From NCBI GenBank assembly GCA_003164095.1, contig PLRX01000155.1, positions 1-62,868 on the forward strand: a DNA stretch of 62,868 bases, written 5' to 3'. Shown here one piece after another: positions 51,979-59,738 of this stretch. Every line of letters starts with the position of its first letter. The first letter of the stretch is position 1. The stretch comes from Acidimicrobiaceae bacterium (lineage in GTDB: Bacteria; Actinomycetota; Acidimicrobiia; Acidimicrobiales; RAAP-2). The position numbers were made by a program, and so were the translations under genes. The notes below the pieces were generated by a model. It saw nothing but the letters and a program-made list of their open reading frames with translations. It had not been told where the DNA came from and searched no databases.

Positions 51979-53613
51979 TCAGCTGCCGGAGGTGACGTCG
52001 ACCACGATGACCTCGAGACCGCCCTCGGCGTGGCGCGCACGGAGCACCTTCTTGTCGAACTTGCCCACGCTGGTCTTGGGGACCTCCTCGATGATCGCCC
52101 ACCGCTCGGGCAGCCACCACTTCGACACCCGGGGGGTCAGGAATTCGAGCAGGTCGTCGGGCGAGAGGTCGACCCCGTCCTCGATCACGACGGCGACCAG
52201 TGGCCGCTCGCTCCAGCGCTCGTCGGGTACGGCGATCACGGCTGCCTCGACCACGCCGGGATGGGCCATCACCTCGTTCTCGAGCTCGACCGAGGAGATC
52301 CACTCCCCGCCCGACTTGATGACGTCCTTGCTCCGGTCGCTGATCTGCATGTAGCCCAGCGGGTCGAGTGACCCGATGTCGCCGGTCCGCAGCCAGCCGT
52401 CATGGAAACGGTCGGGTGACGGGTCGCCGTAGTAGGACCCGGTGATCCAGGGACCGCGCACCTCGAACTCTCCCACCGCGTCGCCGTCGTTGGGCAGGAC
52501 GCTGCCGTCCTCGGAGCAGATCCGCACTTCGACCCCGGGCACGATGCGGCCGGTCTTGGCCCGCCACTCGATCTCCTCGTCCGGTGCCGCCTGACGGGGC
52601 GGCGTGGCCAGCGCGCACAAGGGGCTGGTCTCGGTCATGCCCCAGCCCTGGACCATCTGGACGCCGAGCTCGTCGCGGAAGCGCTCGATGAGCTGACGCG
52701 GGACGGCCGCTCCCCCGGCGGTGATCATCCGCAGGCAGGACAGGTCGACGGGGTTGGTCTGCGAGTAGCGGAGCAGGTCGCTCCAGATGGTGGGCACGCC
52801 GGCCGAGAGGCTCGGACGAAACCGGTTGATGATGGCGGAGAGCGGTGCGGCCTGGAGGAACTGCTGGGGCATGATCAGGTCGGCACCGGTCATGAACCCG
52901 CCGTAGGGAGTGCCCCAGGCGTTGGCGTGGAACATGGGGACGATGGACAGCACGCTGTCCCGCTCGCTGATCCCGAGCGAACTGCCCGACGTGATGGCCA
53001 TGGTGTGCAGGAAGGTCGACCGGTGGCTGTAGACCACGCCCTTGGGGTTACCGGTCGTGCCGGACGTGTAGCACATGGCCGCGGCCTGTCGTTCGTCGAG
53101 CCGGGGCCAGTCGTAGCCGGGCTCCTCGGCTGCAAGGAGCTCCTCGTAGTCGAGCGTCGAGCCGAGGGCCGACGTGTCACCGTCCCCGACCGTGATGATG
53201 TGGCGGACCGTGGGGATCTGGTCACGCACCCGGGCCAGTAGGCCTGCGATCGAGGAGTCGCAGATGATGACCTGGTCCTCGGCGTGGTTGATCACGTACG
53301 CGAGCTGCTCGGGGAACAACCGGAGGTTCAGCGTGTGGAGGACAGCGCCCATGGCCGGGACGGCGAGGTAGGCCTCGAGGTGGGTCTGGTTGTTCCAGAG
53401 GAAGGTGCCCACGCGGTCCGAGTCTCCGATGCCCAGGCGACCCAGGGCCTTGGCCAGCTGCTCCGAGCGTCGGGCGACATCGGCGAAGGAGGCCTCCACG
53501 GACTCGGCACCGGGTCCGGTGATGGTGACCACCCGGCTGGCGCCGTAGACCTGTTGGCCGTGGCGAAGGATGCCGCTGATCAGGAGCGGCCCGTCCTGCA
53601 TGGTGCTGAGCAT
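51979..53613 (-). CDS. Fatty acid-CoA ligase / AMP-binding enzyme
   Basis: A 544-residue adenylate-forming ligase activating a carboxylic acid, probably a medium or long fatty acid, to its CoA ester. AMP-binding loop [16 protein letters not shown], core motif [14 protein letters not shown]-type [20 protein letters not shown], and the C-terminal catalytic Lys in [14 protein letters not shown] 53613 follows GGGAGGAAG. Leads a three-gene minus-strand operon with two small genes. Confidence 0.92.
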
Positions 53614-53915
53614 GGTGCTTCCTCCCCGTCCGCCGCACGGGACGGACGAACGAGTGTACCGACCGGTGGGCCGACGACCCCGCCCCGGGGCCACCGTGAG
53701 CATCCACCACGGTTGCAACCGGTCGCGGGGTGTGACGCGGGCGGGCCGGAGGCGATGTAGGGGATGCAGACCATGCCGCCGGGCGTCTCTCCGCCCGGCA
53801 GAGAGGGGACACCACCGACCATGGACATCCGATCTCGACGCCCCTATAGATCACTCCGCGTGGTTGCCTACCCACTCTGGGTGCCCTTCGACCGAGCACG
53901 AAAGCTGGTGTCGGC
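53614..53915. other. Intergenic region before the flavin/heme operon
   Basis: 302 bp between the ligase start and the first exported protein, facing apart. It contains one good sigma-70-like promoter (53822-53850) and no recognisable gene or RNA. Confidence 0.5.
53822..53850 (+). promoter_or_regulatory. Sigma-70-like promoter for the flavin/heme operon
   Basis: TGGACA (53822-53827) and TATAGA (53845-53850) are separated by exactly 17 bp, giving a near-consensus -35 and a fair -10. They lie 66 bp before the first ATG of the operon. Confidence 0.5.
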
Positions 53916-54467
53916 ATGCCGTTCCCACTGAGCACGCTGGCGATCGCTGCGCTCGCGGTTGGCGGGGTGGCCAGCGGCGTCGGCACTGCGGCGGCGTCCG
54001 CTTCCCCTGCCGCTCCACCGTCCGTCGTGGCGGCCCTGGCCCAGCAACGGCATCTGGCCACAGACATCGCCGGTCTCACCGAGACCGCCCGGCACCTGGA
54101 GGCGACGCTGGCAACGGCGCGACACGCGGCCGGCAGCGGAGCCACCCCCGCCGGCACCGCGACGACGACCACGGTCGCGCCCACATCTGACGGGACGGCG
54201 ACGGCACCCGGTGCCGGCGGCACGGCGGGGACCGAGCCGACCACCGAGCCGGCACGCCACGGTGGTGATCCCGGGTCGGGCCCGGCCACGGGCGACGACG
54301 GTTCGGGGACATCGACGGTGCCCGCGACGGACGTGACCACCGTCCCCACGGCCCCCACGACGACGCCGACGACCACGGCGCCCACCACGACGACCACCAC
54401 GCAGCCCCGTCACCACGGCGGGGATGGAGGTGGCGGCGGTTCCGACGACGGAGGCTCGGATGACTGA
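53916..54467 (+). CDS. Exported low-complexity protein A
   Basis: A 183-residue protein with a signal peptide (about 1-30, cut near ASASPA). A single predicted coiled-coil helix follows (about 36-70, ALAQQRHLATDIAGLTETAR), then a disordered tail rich in Thr, Pro, Gly and Asp, ending SDDGGSDD. The helix resembles that of the next gene, so the two are likely paralogues. No catalytic motif. It may be an extracellular scaffold. Its tail is like the tail of the sigma partner at 49185. Confidence 0.7.
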   Translation: MPFPLSTLAIAALAVGGVASGVGTAAASASPAAPPSVVAALAQQRHLATDIAGLTETARHLEATLATARHAAGSGATPAGTATTTTVAPTSDGTATAPGAGGTAGTEPTTEPARHGGDPGSGPATGDDGSGTSTVPATDVTTVPTAPTTTPTTTAPTTTTTTQPRHHGGDGGGGGSDDGGSDD

Positions 54468-55068
54468 CCGCCGGAACGGCGCTGCACGGGGACGCCGGCG
54501 GGACACGCGGGCCGCAGCCTCCACCCTGGCCGTAGCGGCAACTGCCGGAGTGACGGGCGTCACCCTGGCCTGGGCCGCGGGCTCGACACCCTCGACCGGC
54601 AGCGCCGGTGCCGCCGCACAGGTCTCGGGCCAGATCGCCGCCGACAAGGCGGCCATGGCCCAGCTCCAGCAGACCATCGCCACGGCACGGGGGCAGCTGG
54701 CTGCCCTCGGCGGTGCGGCCCCGGTCGCGGCCACACCCGGTGCGCCTGCGACGCCGGGTGCACCTGGTGCCACCACCACCTCGGCGTCCGGCGCCCCCGG
54801 GTCGGCCGGCACGTCGGGAACCGCCACCGCCGGCTCCCCTGCCTACTCCGCCTCGAGCGGCGCCACCGGGCAGTCCATCGGCGGGACCTACGCCCAGGCT
54901 GCGGGCGGTGCCGCCACCCCGGCTGCGGCGGCCCCGGCGGCCGGGGGGAGCACGGCCGCCCCCACTCCGACGGCACCTCCCGCCACGTCCCCACCTGCGA
55001 CATCCCCCCCGGCCACGGCCCCTCCGCCGGTCACCACATCGACGGGCGCATCGGGAGCCAAGCCGTGA
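54460..55068 (+). CDS. Exported low-complexity protein B
   Basis: A 202-residue protein. Basic start, one membrane/signal segment (about 20-42), then a helix (about 52-85, AAAQVSGQIAADKAAMAQLQ and on), then an Ala/Gly/Pro/Thr-rich tail. Residues 133-136 are SGAT, the core of the motif on which ApbE places FMN in classical targets; the surrounding sequence is not an FMN-binding domain, so this is only a candidate. Start overlaps protein A by 8 bp; GGAGG precedes the ATG. Confidence 0.7.
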   Translation: MTDRRNGAARGRRRDTRAAASTLAVAATAGVTGVTLAWAAGSTPSTGSAGAAAQVSGQIAADKAAMAQLQQTIATARGQLAALGGAAPVAATPGAPATPGAPGATTTSASGAPGSAGTSGTATAGSPAYSASSGATGQSIGGTYAQAAGGAATPAAAAPAAGGSTAAPTPTAPPATSPPATSPPATAPPPVTTSTGASGAKP

Positions 55069-56027
55069 CGTCAGCCGGGACGGCGTTGCCGGCACTGGTC
55101 ATCGGTTCCGTCCGGGCCATGGCTTCCGACGTCACCCTGTTCGGTCCGGACGGACACGACGACCCGTCGGCGGGCCCGGTCGTGGAACGCGCCCTGGCCG
55201 TCTTTGCGACCGTGCAGGCCGCATGCACCCGGTTCGACGCCGCCAGCCCGCTGATGCGGGCCAATGCGATGCCCGACGAGTGGCACGATGTCCCCCGGGT
55301 CCTGCTGGCCGCGGTGCGTGAGGCCTATCGCGCCTACCTACGGACCGACGGTCGCTTCGACCCCCGGGTCCTCGACGACCTGGTCCGCCTGGGCTACGAC
55401 CGGAACCTGCCGTTCGAGGACGGCCGGGTGGTCACCGACGGCGTCGTGACAGCCCGGGACGCACCCGGTGAGTGGGCGCCCCGATTCCGGTCGGGGCGAC
55501 GGTCGCGACTCCACCTCGGGGGTGTGGCCATCGACCTCGGGGGGATCGGCAAGTCGTTGGCTGTCCGCTGGGCCGTCGACCTGCTCGGCGAACAACTCGA
55601 GAGCTTCCTGCTGGATGCCGGTGGTGACTGCTACTGCTCGGGCACCGGGCCCGAGGAGGACGGCTGGCGGGTGGCCGTCGAAGACCCGGCCGGCGGGGAC
55701 CGTCCGGTGGCCGTGCTCTCGCTCACGGACCTCGGGTGCGCCACCTCCTCGACCCGACTGCGGCGGTGGCGGGCGGGCGGTGGTGGCGCCCACCACCTCA
55801 TCGACCCCCGATCCGGACGACCGGGCGGCGCCGGACTCGCAGCGGTCACCGTGGTCGCCGGCGACACCGCGGAGGCCGAGGTGGCCGCCAAGGACCTCTT
55901 CCTGCGGGGTCGTGACGCCATCGCCGAGGCGGCCGATCGCACCGGGGTGGCCGCATTGTGGGTCACCGACGCCGGCGACGTGGCAGCCAGCACGGCGATT
56001 GCACCCCACGTGGTCTGGTGGGCGTGA
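55065..56027 (+). CDS. apbE: FAD:protein FMN transferase (ApbE family)
   Basis: A 320-residue enzyme that covalently attaches FMN from FAD to Ser/Thr of exported redox proteins. Motifs VAIDLGGIGKSLAVRWA, LLDAGGDCYCSGTG and HHLIDPRSGRP are the metal- and FAD-binding set. No clear signal peptide, which is atypical, so the site of action could be cytoplasmic or the N-terminus misplaced. GTG start overlaps the previous stop by 4 bp. Confidence 0.9.
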   Translation: MTSAGTALPALVIGSVRAMASDVTLFGPDGHDDPSAGPVVERALAVFATVQAACTRFDAASPLMRANAMPDEWHDVPRVLLAAVREAYRAYLRTDGRFDPRVLDDLVRLGYDRNLPFEDGRVVTDGVVTARDAPGEWAPRFRSGRRSRLHLGGVAIDLGGIGKSLAVRWAVDLLGEQLESFLLDAGGDCYCSGTGPEEDGWRVAVEDPAGGDRPVAVLSLTDLGCATSSTRLRRWRAGGGGAHHLIDPRSGRPGGAGLAAVTVVAGDTAEAEVAAKDLFLRGRDAIAEAADRTGVAALWVTDAGDVAASTAIAPHVVWWA

Positions 56028-56851
56028 TGACCCCCCGCTCCACCATCGCCCACCCCTCGGCCCGGCCGGGCAGCCTGCCCGAACCGGTCCGGGTCCCCGA
56101 ACTCGACCCGGGCGCAGCCGGTACGGTCACGGCTCCCTCCGAGCCGCGCGTGCCCGGCCGTGCCGCCAGCGCCACACCGGACCGAGTGTCCAGGAACGCG
56201 GCGGACCTGGCCCGGACGGCGGGACTGTTGGCCGTCATCCTGCTCGCATCGCTCGTCGTCGGGCGGGTCGCCGGCTCCAGGGGCGGATCGCTGCTGCACA
56301 ACCGGATGCTCCCCTGGATCCTCGGCCGCGGACTCGGCGTGGCCGCCTACCTGGCGCTGACAGGCACGGTCGTCCTCGGACTGTGGCTCCGCCACCCGTG
56401 GCGGTCCCGGTTCCGCACTCCTTCGGCTGCAGCCATCCTCTGGGCCCATGTGGCGCTTGCCGCCGGCACGGTGACGTTGGTCGCCGGTCACGTGACCGCG
56501 CTCGCCCTCGACCGCTACGCCGGAGTCGGCTGGACTGGTGCCCTCGTGCCGTGGAAAGCGGACTTCGAGCCCACCCCGGTCGCGCTCGGAACCATCGCCC
56601 TCTACGGCCTGGTCCTGGTGGTGGCGACGGCGGCGCTGGCCGGCTCGATCGCCCGGGCCGTCTGGTTCCCGGTCCATTCCGCCGCCGTGCTCGTCTTCTG
56701 CGTCTCGCTCGCCCATGGCGCAACGGCCGGCAGCGACGGCTCGATACTTCGCTGGGTCTACGCGGCATCGGGTCTCGTGGTGCTCATCCTGCAAGTGACC
56801 CGCTGGGTGGTCGGCAACCGGGCGCGTGGCGAAGGGCTGACCGACCGGTGA
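56027..56851 (+). CDS. Ferric-reductase-like bis-heme membrane protein
   Basis: A 274-residue protein with six hydrophobic segments after a polar N-terminus of about 60. Four His lie as two pairs on helices: His141 and His155 (14 apart), His217 and His230 (13 apart), the signature of two stacked b-type hemes in ferric reductase, NOX and MsrQ proteins. No FAD/NAD domain is attached, so electrons must come from a partner, the NuoF-like protein next door. Overlaps the apbE stop (TGATG). Confidence 0.85.
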   Translation: MTPRSTIAHPSARPGSLPEPVRVPELDPGAAGTVTAPSEPRVPGRAASATPDRVSRNAADLARTAGLLAVILLASLVVGRVAGSRGGSLLHNRMLPWILGRGLGVAAYLALTGTVVLGLWLRHPWRSRFRTPSAAAILWAHVALAAGTVTLVAGHVTALALDRYAGVGWTGALVPWKADFEPTPVALGTIALYGLVLVVATAALAGSIARAVWFPVHSAAVLVFCVSLAHGATAGSDGSILRWVYAASGLVVLILQVTRWVVGNRARGEGLTDR

Positions 56852-58236
56852 CCACCTCTCCCGACCTCCTTGCGCCTCGCCCCACTCACGCGGCGGACTT
56901 GCGAACGGGACCCGGCGCGTCGGCCTTCCCGGTCCGCATCGACCGCCTCGGTGGCACCGGTGCTCTCCTGCTGTCGGGTCCGTCGGCCACGGACGGCAGC
57001 GAGGGCCTCGTTGGCCACGCCACCCGGTGGGGCCCGCTGCCGGCCCACGACGGGGCCCGGGTACGGACCCTGCTCCGGGACAGCCGACTCGACGGCCGGG
57101 GCGGTGCCGGGTTTCCCGTGGCGCGCAAGGTCGAGACGGCGCTCCTGGCGCCGGGACGTCCCGTCCTGATCGTGAATGCGTCCGAGAGCGAGCCGGCCAG
57201 TCGCAAGGATCGGACACTGTGTCGGCATCGCCCACACCTGGTGCTCGACGGGGCGTCGCTACTGGCACGGGCGCTCGGCGCCGACGAGGTCGTCCTCCAC
57301 TCCCACCGCATCGGTGGTTCGCCGTCCGGACCGCTGTCCCTGGCCATCGTCGAGCGGGTCCGGGCCGGCCTGGAGGACCCGGCATGGCACCTGTCGGAGG
57401 GACCGGACCGCTATGTGGCCGGCGAGTCCTCGGCTGTCGCCTCGTTCGTCGACGGCGGTGAGGCGCGGCCCAGGTTCACGACCCGACCCCTGGCGGTCGA
57501 CGGGCCGTCAGGTCGCCCCACGGTCGTCTCCAATGCCGAGACGGTGGTCCAGCTGGCGGTGGCCGCCCGCATCGGCGCCGTGGCGTGGAACTCGCTCGGG
57601 GCCCCGTCGTCCCCCGGGCCGCGCCTGGTCACCCTGGCCGGCGCGGTCCCCCGGCCCGGCCTGGTGCTGGAGCTCACCGGCCCGGGGACCATCGGTGACC
57701 TCCTGACTGCCGAAGGGCTTGGTGCACCGCCAGCAGCCGTCCTGGTGGGTGGGTTCGCCGGGACGTGGGTCCGGGGCGACGAGGCCTGGCAGACACCGTT
57801 CAGCCGCGAGTCACTCCAGTGTGTGGGCGCGTCGCCGGGGTGCGGGCTGCTCGGGGTGCTCCCGCACGACGCCTGCCCGCTGGTCGAGACGGCGCGCATC
57901 GTCCGGTACCTGGCCGGCGAGTCGGCGGGCCAGTGCGGCTCGTGTGTGGCAGGGCTCCCCCGACTGGCCGGCGCCATGGACGCCCTGGCCGCGGGTACCG
58001 CCCGCCGCCGGGGCCTCGCCAGGATGGACGCGCTGGCCGATACCGTTCTCGGCAGCGGTGCCTGCGCTCATCCGGACGGGGTGGTCCTGCTCGTCCGGTC
58101 GGCCCTCCGGGTCTTCCGAGACGACGTGGTCCGCCACCTGGCCGGCGGCCCATGCCGCGCCGCCGACCACCCCCCGGTCCTGCCCGTTCCCGATGCCAGG
58201 CCGACACCGACGACGGGTGGCGACGCATGGAGGTGA
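56848..58236 (+). CDS. NuoF-like FMN/Fe-S flavoprotein
   Basis: A 462-residue protein homologous to the NADH-oxidising NuoF subunit. GRGGAGFP (83-90) and NASESEPASRKDR (110-122) form the FMN/NADH site; SLBB-like region about 255-310. The C-terminal Fe-S segment reads ESAGQCGSC with Cys363, Cys366 and later Cys406, but the first of the four NuoF cysteines is Ala360, so the cluster is not the classical four-Cys one. GTG start overlaps the heme gene (GTGA). Confidence 0.88.
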   Translation: MTTSPDLLAPRPTHAADLRTGPGASAFPVRIDRLGGTGALLLSGPSATDGSEGLVGHATRWGPLPAHDGARVRTLLRDSRLDGRGGAGFPVARKVETALLAPGRPVLIVNASESEPASRKDRTLCRHRPHLVLDGASLLARALGADEVVLHSHRIGGSPSGPLSLAIVERVRAGLEDPAWHLSEGPDRYVAGESSAVASFVDGGEARPRFTTRPLAVDGPSGRPTVVSNAETVVQLAVAARIGAVAWNSLGAPSSPGPRLVTLAGAVPRPGLVLELTGPGTIGDLLTAEGLGAPPAAVLVGGFAGTWVRGDEAWQTPFSRESLQCVGASPGCGLLGVLPHDACPLVETARIVRYLAGESAGQCGSCVAGLPRLAGAMDALAAGTARRRGLARMDALADTVLGSGACAHPDGVVLLVRSALRVFRDDVVRHLAGGPCRAADHPPVLPVPDARPTPTTGGDAWR

Positions 58237-58469
58237 CCGTGACGGTCCGGATCGATCCCACCCGCTGCCGGGGCCATGCCATCTGCGCCCTGTTCTTCGC
58301 CGACGGTGTGGAGCTGGACCAGTGGGGGTTCGGCCGGGTGCTCGACGACAGTGCCGACTCGAGCCGACTGCTGCGCAAGGCGCGACGGGCGGCGGCGGCG
58401 TGCCCCAACGGGGCGTTCATCGTGTCGGAGCACTCGACGCCCGCTGCCCGGCCGGTCCACACCGGCTGA
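58227..58469 (+). CDS. Ferredoxin, three-Cys cluster type
   Basis: An 80-residue ferredoxin with CRGHAIC (C-x5-C) and CPNG, three Cys in all, as in 3Fe-4S ferredoxins. ATG 58227 or GTG 58233 is possible; the latter would give the GTGA overlap seen throughout the operon. Probable electron donor of the NuoF-like protein. Confidence 0.85.
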   Translation: MEVTVTVRIDPTRCRGHAICALFFADGVELDQWGFGRVLDDSADSSRLLRKARRAAAACPNGAFIVSEHSTPAARPVHTG

Positions 58470-58823
58470 ACCCTCCGCCCTCGCCTCCGGTCGGATGGCC
58501 GTCCGCTGAGACGTGACGCCCGAGGCCTGCAGCGCCGCCGGGTGGACCTCGGGGCCTCGCTGGTGGCCGCCACCGGTGCCACCACCGGCCGGTCTGCTGG
58601 AGCCTGGTCCCGCGCCCGCCACGCCGCCGAGCACGGCCACCCGCAGATCGAGGTGGGCGTCCGGCCTCGCACCGCCGGTCCGTGCACAGGATCACCCCTT
58701 GTACCGGTGGGCCACCCGTGATGGACTGGGCAAACCGCACCCCCGCCGGTCCGGCCCCCGGAACGCGGGTGCTGCGCCATCTGAGCACGCCGCTCACCAC
58801 CTCCCCTCGGACCGAGGAGCCCC
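58470..58823. other. 354-bp region with no clear gene
   Basis: Open frames here are Pro/Arg-rich and unconvincing, apart from a possible GTG-started frame of about 58 codons near 58545. No terminator or riboswitch was recognised. A promoter for the wall hydrolase should lie near the end; GAGGAG precedes its ATG. Confidence 0.35.
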
Positions 58824-59738
58824 ATGGGCAAACTGGTGGGCGTCCTCGCCCTGTGCTGTGGCATCGCCGTCCTGGCCGTGGCCGTCCTCGTGTCGGCGGT
58901 CGTCGGGGGTGCGTCCTCCCCGTCCGGTCCGTCGTCCGGCACCGCTGCGTCCACCGGCGCCCGCGGCACCGGTCCCGCCCTGCCCGCAGGGTGGGCCGCC
59001 CTCGAACAGGCTGCGGCCGCAACGTGCCCCGGGCTGTCCTGGTCGGTCCTGGCCGCGATCGGCACCGTCGAATCCGACAGCGGGCGATCCACCGCCCCGG
59101 GCGTGGCCTCCGGGGCCAACGCCGCCGGTGCCGAGGGACCGTTCCAGTTCGTACCGTCGACGTTCGCCGCCTATGCCACGATCGGCCCGGGTGGCGCGCG
59201 CCCCGCCTCCCCCTATGACCCGGTAGACGCCGCCTTCACGGCTGCAACGATGTTGTGCGCCGACGGGGCGGGAGCCGCCGCTGGCCTCCGTGGCGCGGTG
59301 TTCGCCTACAACCACGACGACGTCTACGTGTCGACGGTCCTGACGCTCTCCCTCGCCTTCGCCGACGATGCCACGGTGGACGCCACGGTCGTGGCCGCGC
59401 TCGCCTTCGCAGCGGCACAGCTCGGCGTACCCTACGAATGGGGCGGCACCGGACAGGGCGGATTCGACTGCTCCGGCCTGTCCCAGGCCTCGTTCGCCCA
59501 CGCGGGCGTGGGCCTCCCCCGGGTCGCCCAGGACCAGTTCGAGGCCGGACCAGCCGTCCCGGGCGCGGCGCCGCAGCCAGGTGACCTGCTGTTCTTCGGT
59601 ACGGGCCCGACCGGCGTGGACCACGTCGGCATCTACGCCGGTGACGGACTCATGATCGACGCGCCCCACACCGGGGCGGTGGTCCGGGTGGAGCCGGCCG
59701 ACTGGTCCGGCCTGGTGGGAGCCACCCGGCCGGGCTGA
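58824..59738 (+). CDS. Lytic transglycosylase / NlpC-P60 wall hydrolase
   Basis: A 304-residue exported two-domain peptidoglycan enzyme. Membrane anchor about 5-28; transglycosylase-like domain about 55-180 with candidate catalytic Glu83 (GTVESDSG) and GPFQFVPSTF; NlpC/P60 domain about 185-300 with Cys216 (FDCSG), His267 (HVGIY) and His282. Such fusions often belong to conjugative elements, but no conjugation genes are in view. Likely secreted or surface-bound. Confidence 0.88.
   Translation: MGKLVGVLALCCGIAVLAVAVLVSAVVGGASSPSGPSSGTAASTGARGTGPALPAGWAALEQAAAATCPGLSWSVLAAIGTVESDSGRSTAPGVASGANAAGAEGPFQFVPSTFAAYATIGPGGARPASPYDPVDAAFTAATMLCADGAGAAAGLRGAVFAYNHDDVYVSTVLTLSLAFADDATVDATVVAALAFAAAQLGVPYEWGGTGQGGFDCSGLSQASFAHAGVGLPRVAQDQFEAGPAVPGAAPQPGDLLFFGTGPTGVDHVGIYAGDGLMIDAPHTGAVVRVEPADWSGLVGATRPG

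Follow-up and report, generated by a model that had tools for sequence, protein, structure and literature searches.

A candidate flavin-tag protein in a probable ApbE-linked transmembrane electron-transfer operon of an Acidimicrobiaceae bacterium

A flavinylation system requires a flavin-bearing acceptor, and the question raised by the locus described here is which protein could play that part. Our study concerns a six-gene operon of an Acidimicrobiaceae bacterium (GenBank assembly GCA_003164095.1, contig PLRX01000155.1), analyzed within a stretch of 62,868 nucleotides that we call the window. The operon encodes an ApbE-family flavin mononucleotide (FMN) transferase, yet a Pfam hmmscan search found no FMN_bind domain (PF04205) in any of the six genes; two low-complexity proteins, here named sub1 and sub2, and a predicted membrane heme protein gave no Pfam match at all at an expectation value (E) of 1 or less. 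We propose, with a probability of about 0.62, that the products of the operon act as a chain carrying electrons across the membrane and that sub2, a natural flavin-tag protein that ends close after the residues TGAS, is the carrier on the extracytosolic side. We infer its flavinylation and topology, as well as the direction, donor, and acceptor of the chain, from the analyses presented below. The features of the operon are as follows.

53916-54467, plus strand: sub1, exported or anchored low-complexity protein of 183 residues, Thr/Pro-rich, with an N-terminal hydrophobic segment
54460-55068, plus strand: sub2, anchored low-complexity protein of 202 residues, with a basic N-terminus, a transmembrane helix, an Ala/Pro/Thr arm, and TGAS
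55042-55053, plus strand: TGAS tag, residues 195-198 of sub2; candidate flavinylation site Ser198, codon 55051-55053
55065-56027, plus strand: apbE, FMN transferase family (PF02424, 5e-40)
56027-56851, plus strand: transmembrane heme protein with an MsrQ/NOX/STEAP-like core; His141, 155, 217, and 230
56848-58236, plus strand: NuoF-like FMN/iron-sulfur protein (Complex1_51K, PF01512, 8.7e-25; NADH_4Fe-4S, PF10589, 5.5e-17)
58227-58469, plus strand: three-Cys ferredoxin (Fer4_15, 1.5e-08; 35.6 bits against a cut-off of 22.4)

A conserved tail ahead of apbE

The end of sub2 meets the [ST]GA[ST] core of the ApbE substrate motif D-x-x-[ST]-G-A-[ST], on the last residue of which ApbE places FMN (PMC12052999). 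According to the same source, seven residues are enough for the engineered flavin-tag of Tong et al. 2021, a short C- or N-terminal motif that suffices for ApbE and works best at a terminus. The engineered tag is a laboratory construct with the full motif, whereas that of sub2 is natural and lacks the Asp, and apparently represents a natural version of it.

We determined the distribution of this ending with a profile of the membrane protein, which matched 77 of the 396 genomes of the phylum at E ≤ 1e-8; 60 further stretches were added around the matches. The resulting survey comprises 75 loci and the window, 76 in total, in which the open reading frame (ORF) before apbE was picked blind to the motif. 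Duplicates or contigs starting inside apbE (L031, L060-L070, L076, L078, and L109) were excluded, as were L059, a locus of the FMN_bind kind, ten loci whose fetched stretch contained no apbE, and L074, which has no upstream ORF. The strict motif, [ST]GA[ST], was taken from the literature and scored within the last 10 residues. It is present in 24 of the 76 upstream ORFs, against a mean of 0.7 and a maximum of 5 in 2000 shuffles of the tails, a control that overstates independence because the loci share ancestry. Among the 23 loci closest to the window (the window itself and membrane-protein matches at about 40% identity or more), 22 have it. A loose motif, [ST]x[AG][ST], defined after the data had been looked at, ends 60 of the 76 (shuffles 12.6 +/- 3.0, maximum 26), and 36 of the 76 end in Ser. 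The other called genes of the loci rarely end in this manner (strict 1/583, loose 16/583), including those with low-complexity tails (strict 1/116, loose 8/116); it is important to note that the 583 genes were required to have a codon score of at least 15, which many of the 76 ORFs would not reach, and that neither the shuffle control nor the FMN_bind control described below has this requirement.

Seven columns are invariant in an alignment of eight sub2 proteins, T195, A197, and S198 among them, and in relatives from the same genus and family the middle varies freely while the end is nearly always TGAS plus a few residues, the exception being L034, with TRAS. We considered that the tail might be a by-product of overlap with the apbE start and rejected this, since both spacing and codons vary: the distance from the ORF stop to the estimated apbE start ranges in the tagged loci from overlap to 132 bases, and the 24 strict tags use four codons for Gly (GGA 10, GGG 6, GGC 6, GGT 2), four for Ala, and five for Ser. 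This variation of codons indicates selection at the protein level. Our own organism has three loci of the apbE-membrane-NuoF-ferredoxin type, whose upstream ORFs end in TGAS (window), SSGAS (contig C147), and TSGQS (contig C2); the last fails even the loose motif and was counted as a miss.

Internal SGAT sequences also occur, one in the sub1 and another in the sub2 of the window, and were treated as chance because their location is not conserved in the relatives compared. In two genomes of the genus g10 (L118 and L141) the ORF before apbE has a Cys-bearing tail (CYTSPSGNVTCY and CYTTPSGSTVCS) instead of the tag.

A helix is predicted at residues 50-84 of sub2, followed by a disordered Ala/Pro/Thr arm; the AlphaFold model has a mean predicted local distance difference test (pLDDT) score of 59.3, with block means of 85-95 for residues 51-80 only, and the arm is largely unstructured. 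No folded flavin domain was detected, and NCBIfam returned only weak TrbJ matches (E 0.013 and 0.11), far under the cut-offs; sub1 and the membrane protein had no NCBIfam match. Known ApbE targets without an FMN_bind domain include FMN_red and Flavodoxin_4 substrates (PMC10979944, PMC11334425), and the FMN_red ones bear the motif on an unstructured C-terminal extension; they differ from sub2 in having a folded flavin-binding domain and come mostly from Firmicutes. No description of a disordered, C-terminally tagged flavin carrier was found in the literature searched, which covered listings, abstracts, and some sections and passages of articles.

With respect to topology, in 62 of the 69 sub2-slot ORFs with a clear hydrophobic segment the flank before the segment is more positive than that after it, which predicts an N-in/C-out orientation. 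An alternative is that the tag end of sub2 is cytosolic and that its FMN relays electrons from the NuoF-like protein or ferredoxin to the hemes. The donor proteins do look cytosolic, and so does ApbE (see below), but the charge bias and the Pro/Thr-rich arm, which looks exported, predict that the tail lies outside, and we consider a cytosolic tag improbable.

Sub1, which precedes sub2, has an acidic Gly/Asp tail (...GGSDDGGSDD). Acidic ends are found in 39 of 60 candidates of the sub1 slot bearing a transmembrane segment, a set that includes some plainly unrelated genes, and we conjecture that the tail binds cations, perhaps iron. In the sub1 relatives of eight loci (L042, L043, L071, L072, L073, L075, L077, and L146), TTGAS, VTGAS, or HTGAS stands before the acidic tail; judged by this sequence, sub1 may be a second tagged substrate in some genera.

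Carriers elsewhere and the ApbE subfamily

If the carrier were an ordinary FMN_bind protein encoded elsewhere in the genome, the operon would be an MsrQ-like system of the ordinary kind. The genome of our organism does have one PF04205 match, on contig C56. However, that gene lies beside an apbE of its own and a longer heme/NAD-type (nicotinamide adenine dinucleotide) membrane protein, and FMN_bind matches are absent from 48 of the 64 genomes that gave survey loci; 36 of these 48 have a completeness of 90% or more and a contamination of 5% or less. None of the 48 has DUF2271 or DUF3570 either. The 64 genomes include G005, whose sole locus was excluded as truncated, and G409, in which two of three loci have no apbE; the search covers the survey genomes other than those of L071-L073, L075, and L077. 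The two types of locus also differ in what precedes apbE. Of 17 FMN_bind control loci, 15 have apbE, and in 14 of these 15 (not L171) the FMN_bind gene stands directly before it; the ORF picked blind to the motif at that place has the strict tag in 0/15 and the loose one in 1/15. For this choice the search window was widened to +160, since the control ApbEs start later against the profile; with the unwidened survey window an ORF was obtained in 12/15 controls, and in 11 of these it was an ORF other than the FMN_bind gene. Finally, in a tree of 89 ApbEs, the 74 survey proteins and the 15 FMN_bind-linked ones split at a single branch (Shimodaira-Hasegawa-like approximate likelihood ratio test, SH-aLRT, 99); the tree was built by a quick method with no bootstrap, leaving out L157 and L168 as long branches. 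These observations leave the idea of a carrier encoded elsewhere with very little probability, and the sequence relationships mark the survey-linked ApbEs as a distinct subfamily.

Some properties of this subfamily also weigh against our reading. The catalytic triad of the Vibrio cholerae ApbE is Asp285-Ser241-His257 (PMC12052999). Mapped by spacing and alignment, the window ApbE has Ser228 and His244, and it has Glu272 at the position of the catalytic Asp. Among the 76 survey ApbEs this position is Glu in 56, Asn in 13, Asp in 6, and a gap in 1, so that it is replaced in 69, and four residues further on there is Lys in 44, Thr in 27, Leu in 4, and a gap in 1. The 15 FMN_bind-linked ApbEs all have Asp and Thr at these two positions. 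The activity of the survey-linked enzymes could therefore be altered or lost, and these replacements are the strongest ground to doubt ordinary transferase activity. In addition, no signal peptide was seen in the window ApbE when its sequence was read by eye, and a crude hydropathy test found an N-terminal hydrophobic segment in 0/75 of its relatives; the enzyme thus seems cytosolic, while the tail that it would modify is predicted to be outside. Our guess is that flavinylation takes place ahead of export. The tag itself departs from the published motif, whose N-terminal Asp is replaced by T in the window and by T or H in the closest loci (eight aligned sub2 proteins). In the text of PMC12052999 this Asp is called "strictly conserved", yet a study cited there found only a minor effect of its change to Ala in one substrate; PMC10722498 reports it as essential for the V. 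cholerae ApbE. Serine is moreover a poorer FMN acceptor than threonine (PMC12052999). As for distribution, the strict tag occurs in only 2 of the 53 loci beyond the 23 closest, and 16 of the 76 upstream ORFs do not have even the loose motif, although four of these (L119, L120, L129, and L161) are probably wrong gene calls that were counted as misses all the same.

Taken at face value, the altered Asp and Thr, the missing motif Asp, and the low-complexity sequence of sub2 would suit a structural protein of the cell wall or of a membrane complex that is not flavinylated by this ApbE, the enzyme having lost or changed its activity, and whose conserved C-terminus serves instead as a signal for docking or sorting. 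We regard this as unlikely, though it is the alternative that we take most seriously. Ser228 and His244 are kept in 73 of the 76 survey ApbEs and Asp188 in all 76, the tag preserves the core known from the literature directly beside apbE, and 48 of the 64 genomes contain none of the three carrier families searched.

Operon layout and the predicted membrane heme protein

The first-pass annotation of this DNA described a six-gene plus-strand operon with overlapping genes, and our gene coordinates and Pfam domains confirm it in the order given, with small corrections. Each gene overlaps its successor by 1-10 bases, and the operon spans 53916-58469. A start at 53822 had been proposed, but the ATG at 53821 opens a different frame that stops after 36 codons. 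The single promoter that had been assigned is unproved: a scan of 53600-58850 with a sigma-70-like consensus found 0 promoters, with 0.0 expected; one transcript can be argued for because the six genes overlap. A neighborhood search shows that apbE also stands directly 5' of the membrane gene in other genomes of the family, order, and phylum, and the gene set is not a chance arrangement.

The His pairs noted earlier in the membrane protein, His141/155 and His217/230, hold at exactly these positions: none of the four varies across the 21 aligned sequences, and they correspond to two predicted heme sites. Relatives at E ≤ 0.001 are present in 65 of 100 near genomes. Named relatives comprise 19 records, all metagenome-assembled; 18 are actinobacterial by title, chiefly Acidimicrobiaceae or Acidimicrobiales, and the remaining one bears just the title 'bacterium'. 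The AlphaFold model (mean pLDDT 80.5) suggests a NOX/STEAP/b561-like fold. In VIA-align the best Z values were 13.4 for SpNOX and 13.2 for STEAP4, the range for SpNOX, STEAP4, and cytochrome b561 being 13.1-13.4, near the value of ~13 that, by the tool's own warning, helical bundles can reach by chance, which is a further reason for caution. The first 20 structures were all heme-bearing membrane proteins (NOX/DUOX, STEAP, b561/Dcytb, b6f), and Foldseek alone gave no match in the PDB at E ≤ 0.001. The window protein shares the transmembrane heme core of SpNOX, STEAP4/STEAP2, and cytochrome b561 (8qt6, 6hcy, 7tai, 4o6y) but differs from this set in having no fused flavin/NAD domain; the separate NuoF-like protein and ferredoxin would take its place. 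In the C147 paralogue the membrane protein has a long Ser/Thr/Gly-rich C-terminal extension past the heme core (L057:5675-6796).

The first-pass annotation had also presented the gene set, with its two exported proteins, as one not known as a characterised system. Its core has been in print since 2021: Meheust et al. (PMC8238504) report 31 clusters of ApbE, MsrQ-like, and NuoF-like proteins, uncharacterised in that text. Systems of this class are known, albeit uncharacterised. As in our operon, apbE stands in the MsrQ-like clusters beside a six-helix heme membrane protein, and such clusters are common in Actinobacteria; they typically, though not obligatorily, include an FMN-binding-domain gene, which our operon does not. 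Their marker is PF01794, whereas hmmscan assigned our protein to no family at E ≤ 1 even though its fold and His pattern fit. Because our operon has neither a PF01794 match nor a visible ApbE signal peptide, the screen described there may well have missed it.

On the donor side, alignment of the NuoF-like protein to solved chains shows that Ala360 takes the place of the first Cys in SCGxCxxC and that Cys363, 366, and 406 are retained. Cys343 and Cys436 are additionally invariant (13 rows), and Cys343 might substitute for the missing Cys of the cluster motif. The ferredoxin was rightly called three-Cys, with three Cys in its sequence. A NuoF-like gene lies downstream in 33/76 loci and a ferredoxin in 30/76, some having been lost off short contigs; with both in under half of the loci, the others probably use another donor.

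Beyond the operon, an NlpC/P60-family protein with a weak transglycosylase-like region is encoded just 3' of it (58824-59738), and L031 and L032 have proteins of comparable length after the operon. In six other loci (L033, L035, L040, L041, L042, and L044) a third small exported low-complexity protein follows the membrane, NuoF-like, and ferredoxin genes, with genes resembling a sensor histidine kinase and a response regulator (named by eye) next; no such set was called 3' of the window operon.

Proposed electron path and its meaning

The domains, the invariant His residues, the predicted fold, and the conserved gene order support the original description of an operon for transmembrane flavin/heme electron transfer, which had left the acceptor open and overlooked the motif of sub2. 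In the mechanism that we propose, the N-terminal helix of sub2 would anchor it in the membrane, while its tail, made up of a short helix and a lengthy disordered arm with TGAS close to the C-terminus, would lie outside; the serine of the tag would receive FMN from the ApbE encoded in the same operon. Electrons would pass from NADH (the reduced form of NAD) to the NuoF-like flavoprotein, the three-Cys ferredoxin, and the inner and then the outer heme; because of the NuoF homology we prefer this order, and the earlier one, from ferredoxin to the NuoF-like protein, seems less likely. The outer heme would reduce the FMN at the end of the arm, and from there the electrons would reach an acceptor outside; our guess for this acceptor is Fe(III), which the acidic tail of sub1 might hold.

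More tentatively, and a little short of an even chance in our estimation, Actinobacteria may hold a phylum-wide, undescribed class of ApbE substrates: membrane-anchored disordered arms that bear FMN on a serine at the very C-terminus or close to it, made before export by a separate cytosolic ApbE subfamily with a changed, perhaps metal-independent, site. In such proteins the arm would replace the folded FMN_bind domain and allow the flavin to move back and forth from the cytochrome to acceptors farther away.

If this is true, many actinobacterial genomes would use a flavin carrier invisible to domain searches, and ApbE genes lacking known substrates would be partly explained. The engineered flavin-tag would have a natural counterpart, covalent FMN would be workable on a disordered tether in place of a folded flavin domain, and the ApbE family would include a subfamily with other motif and metal requirements.

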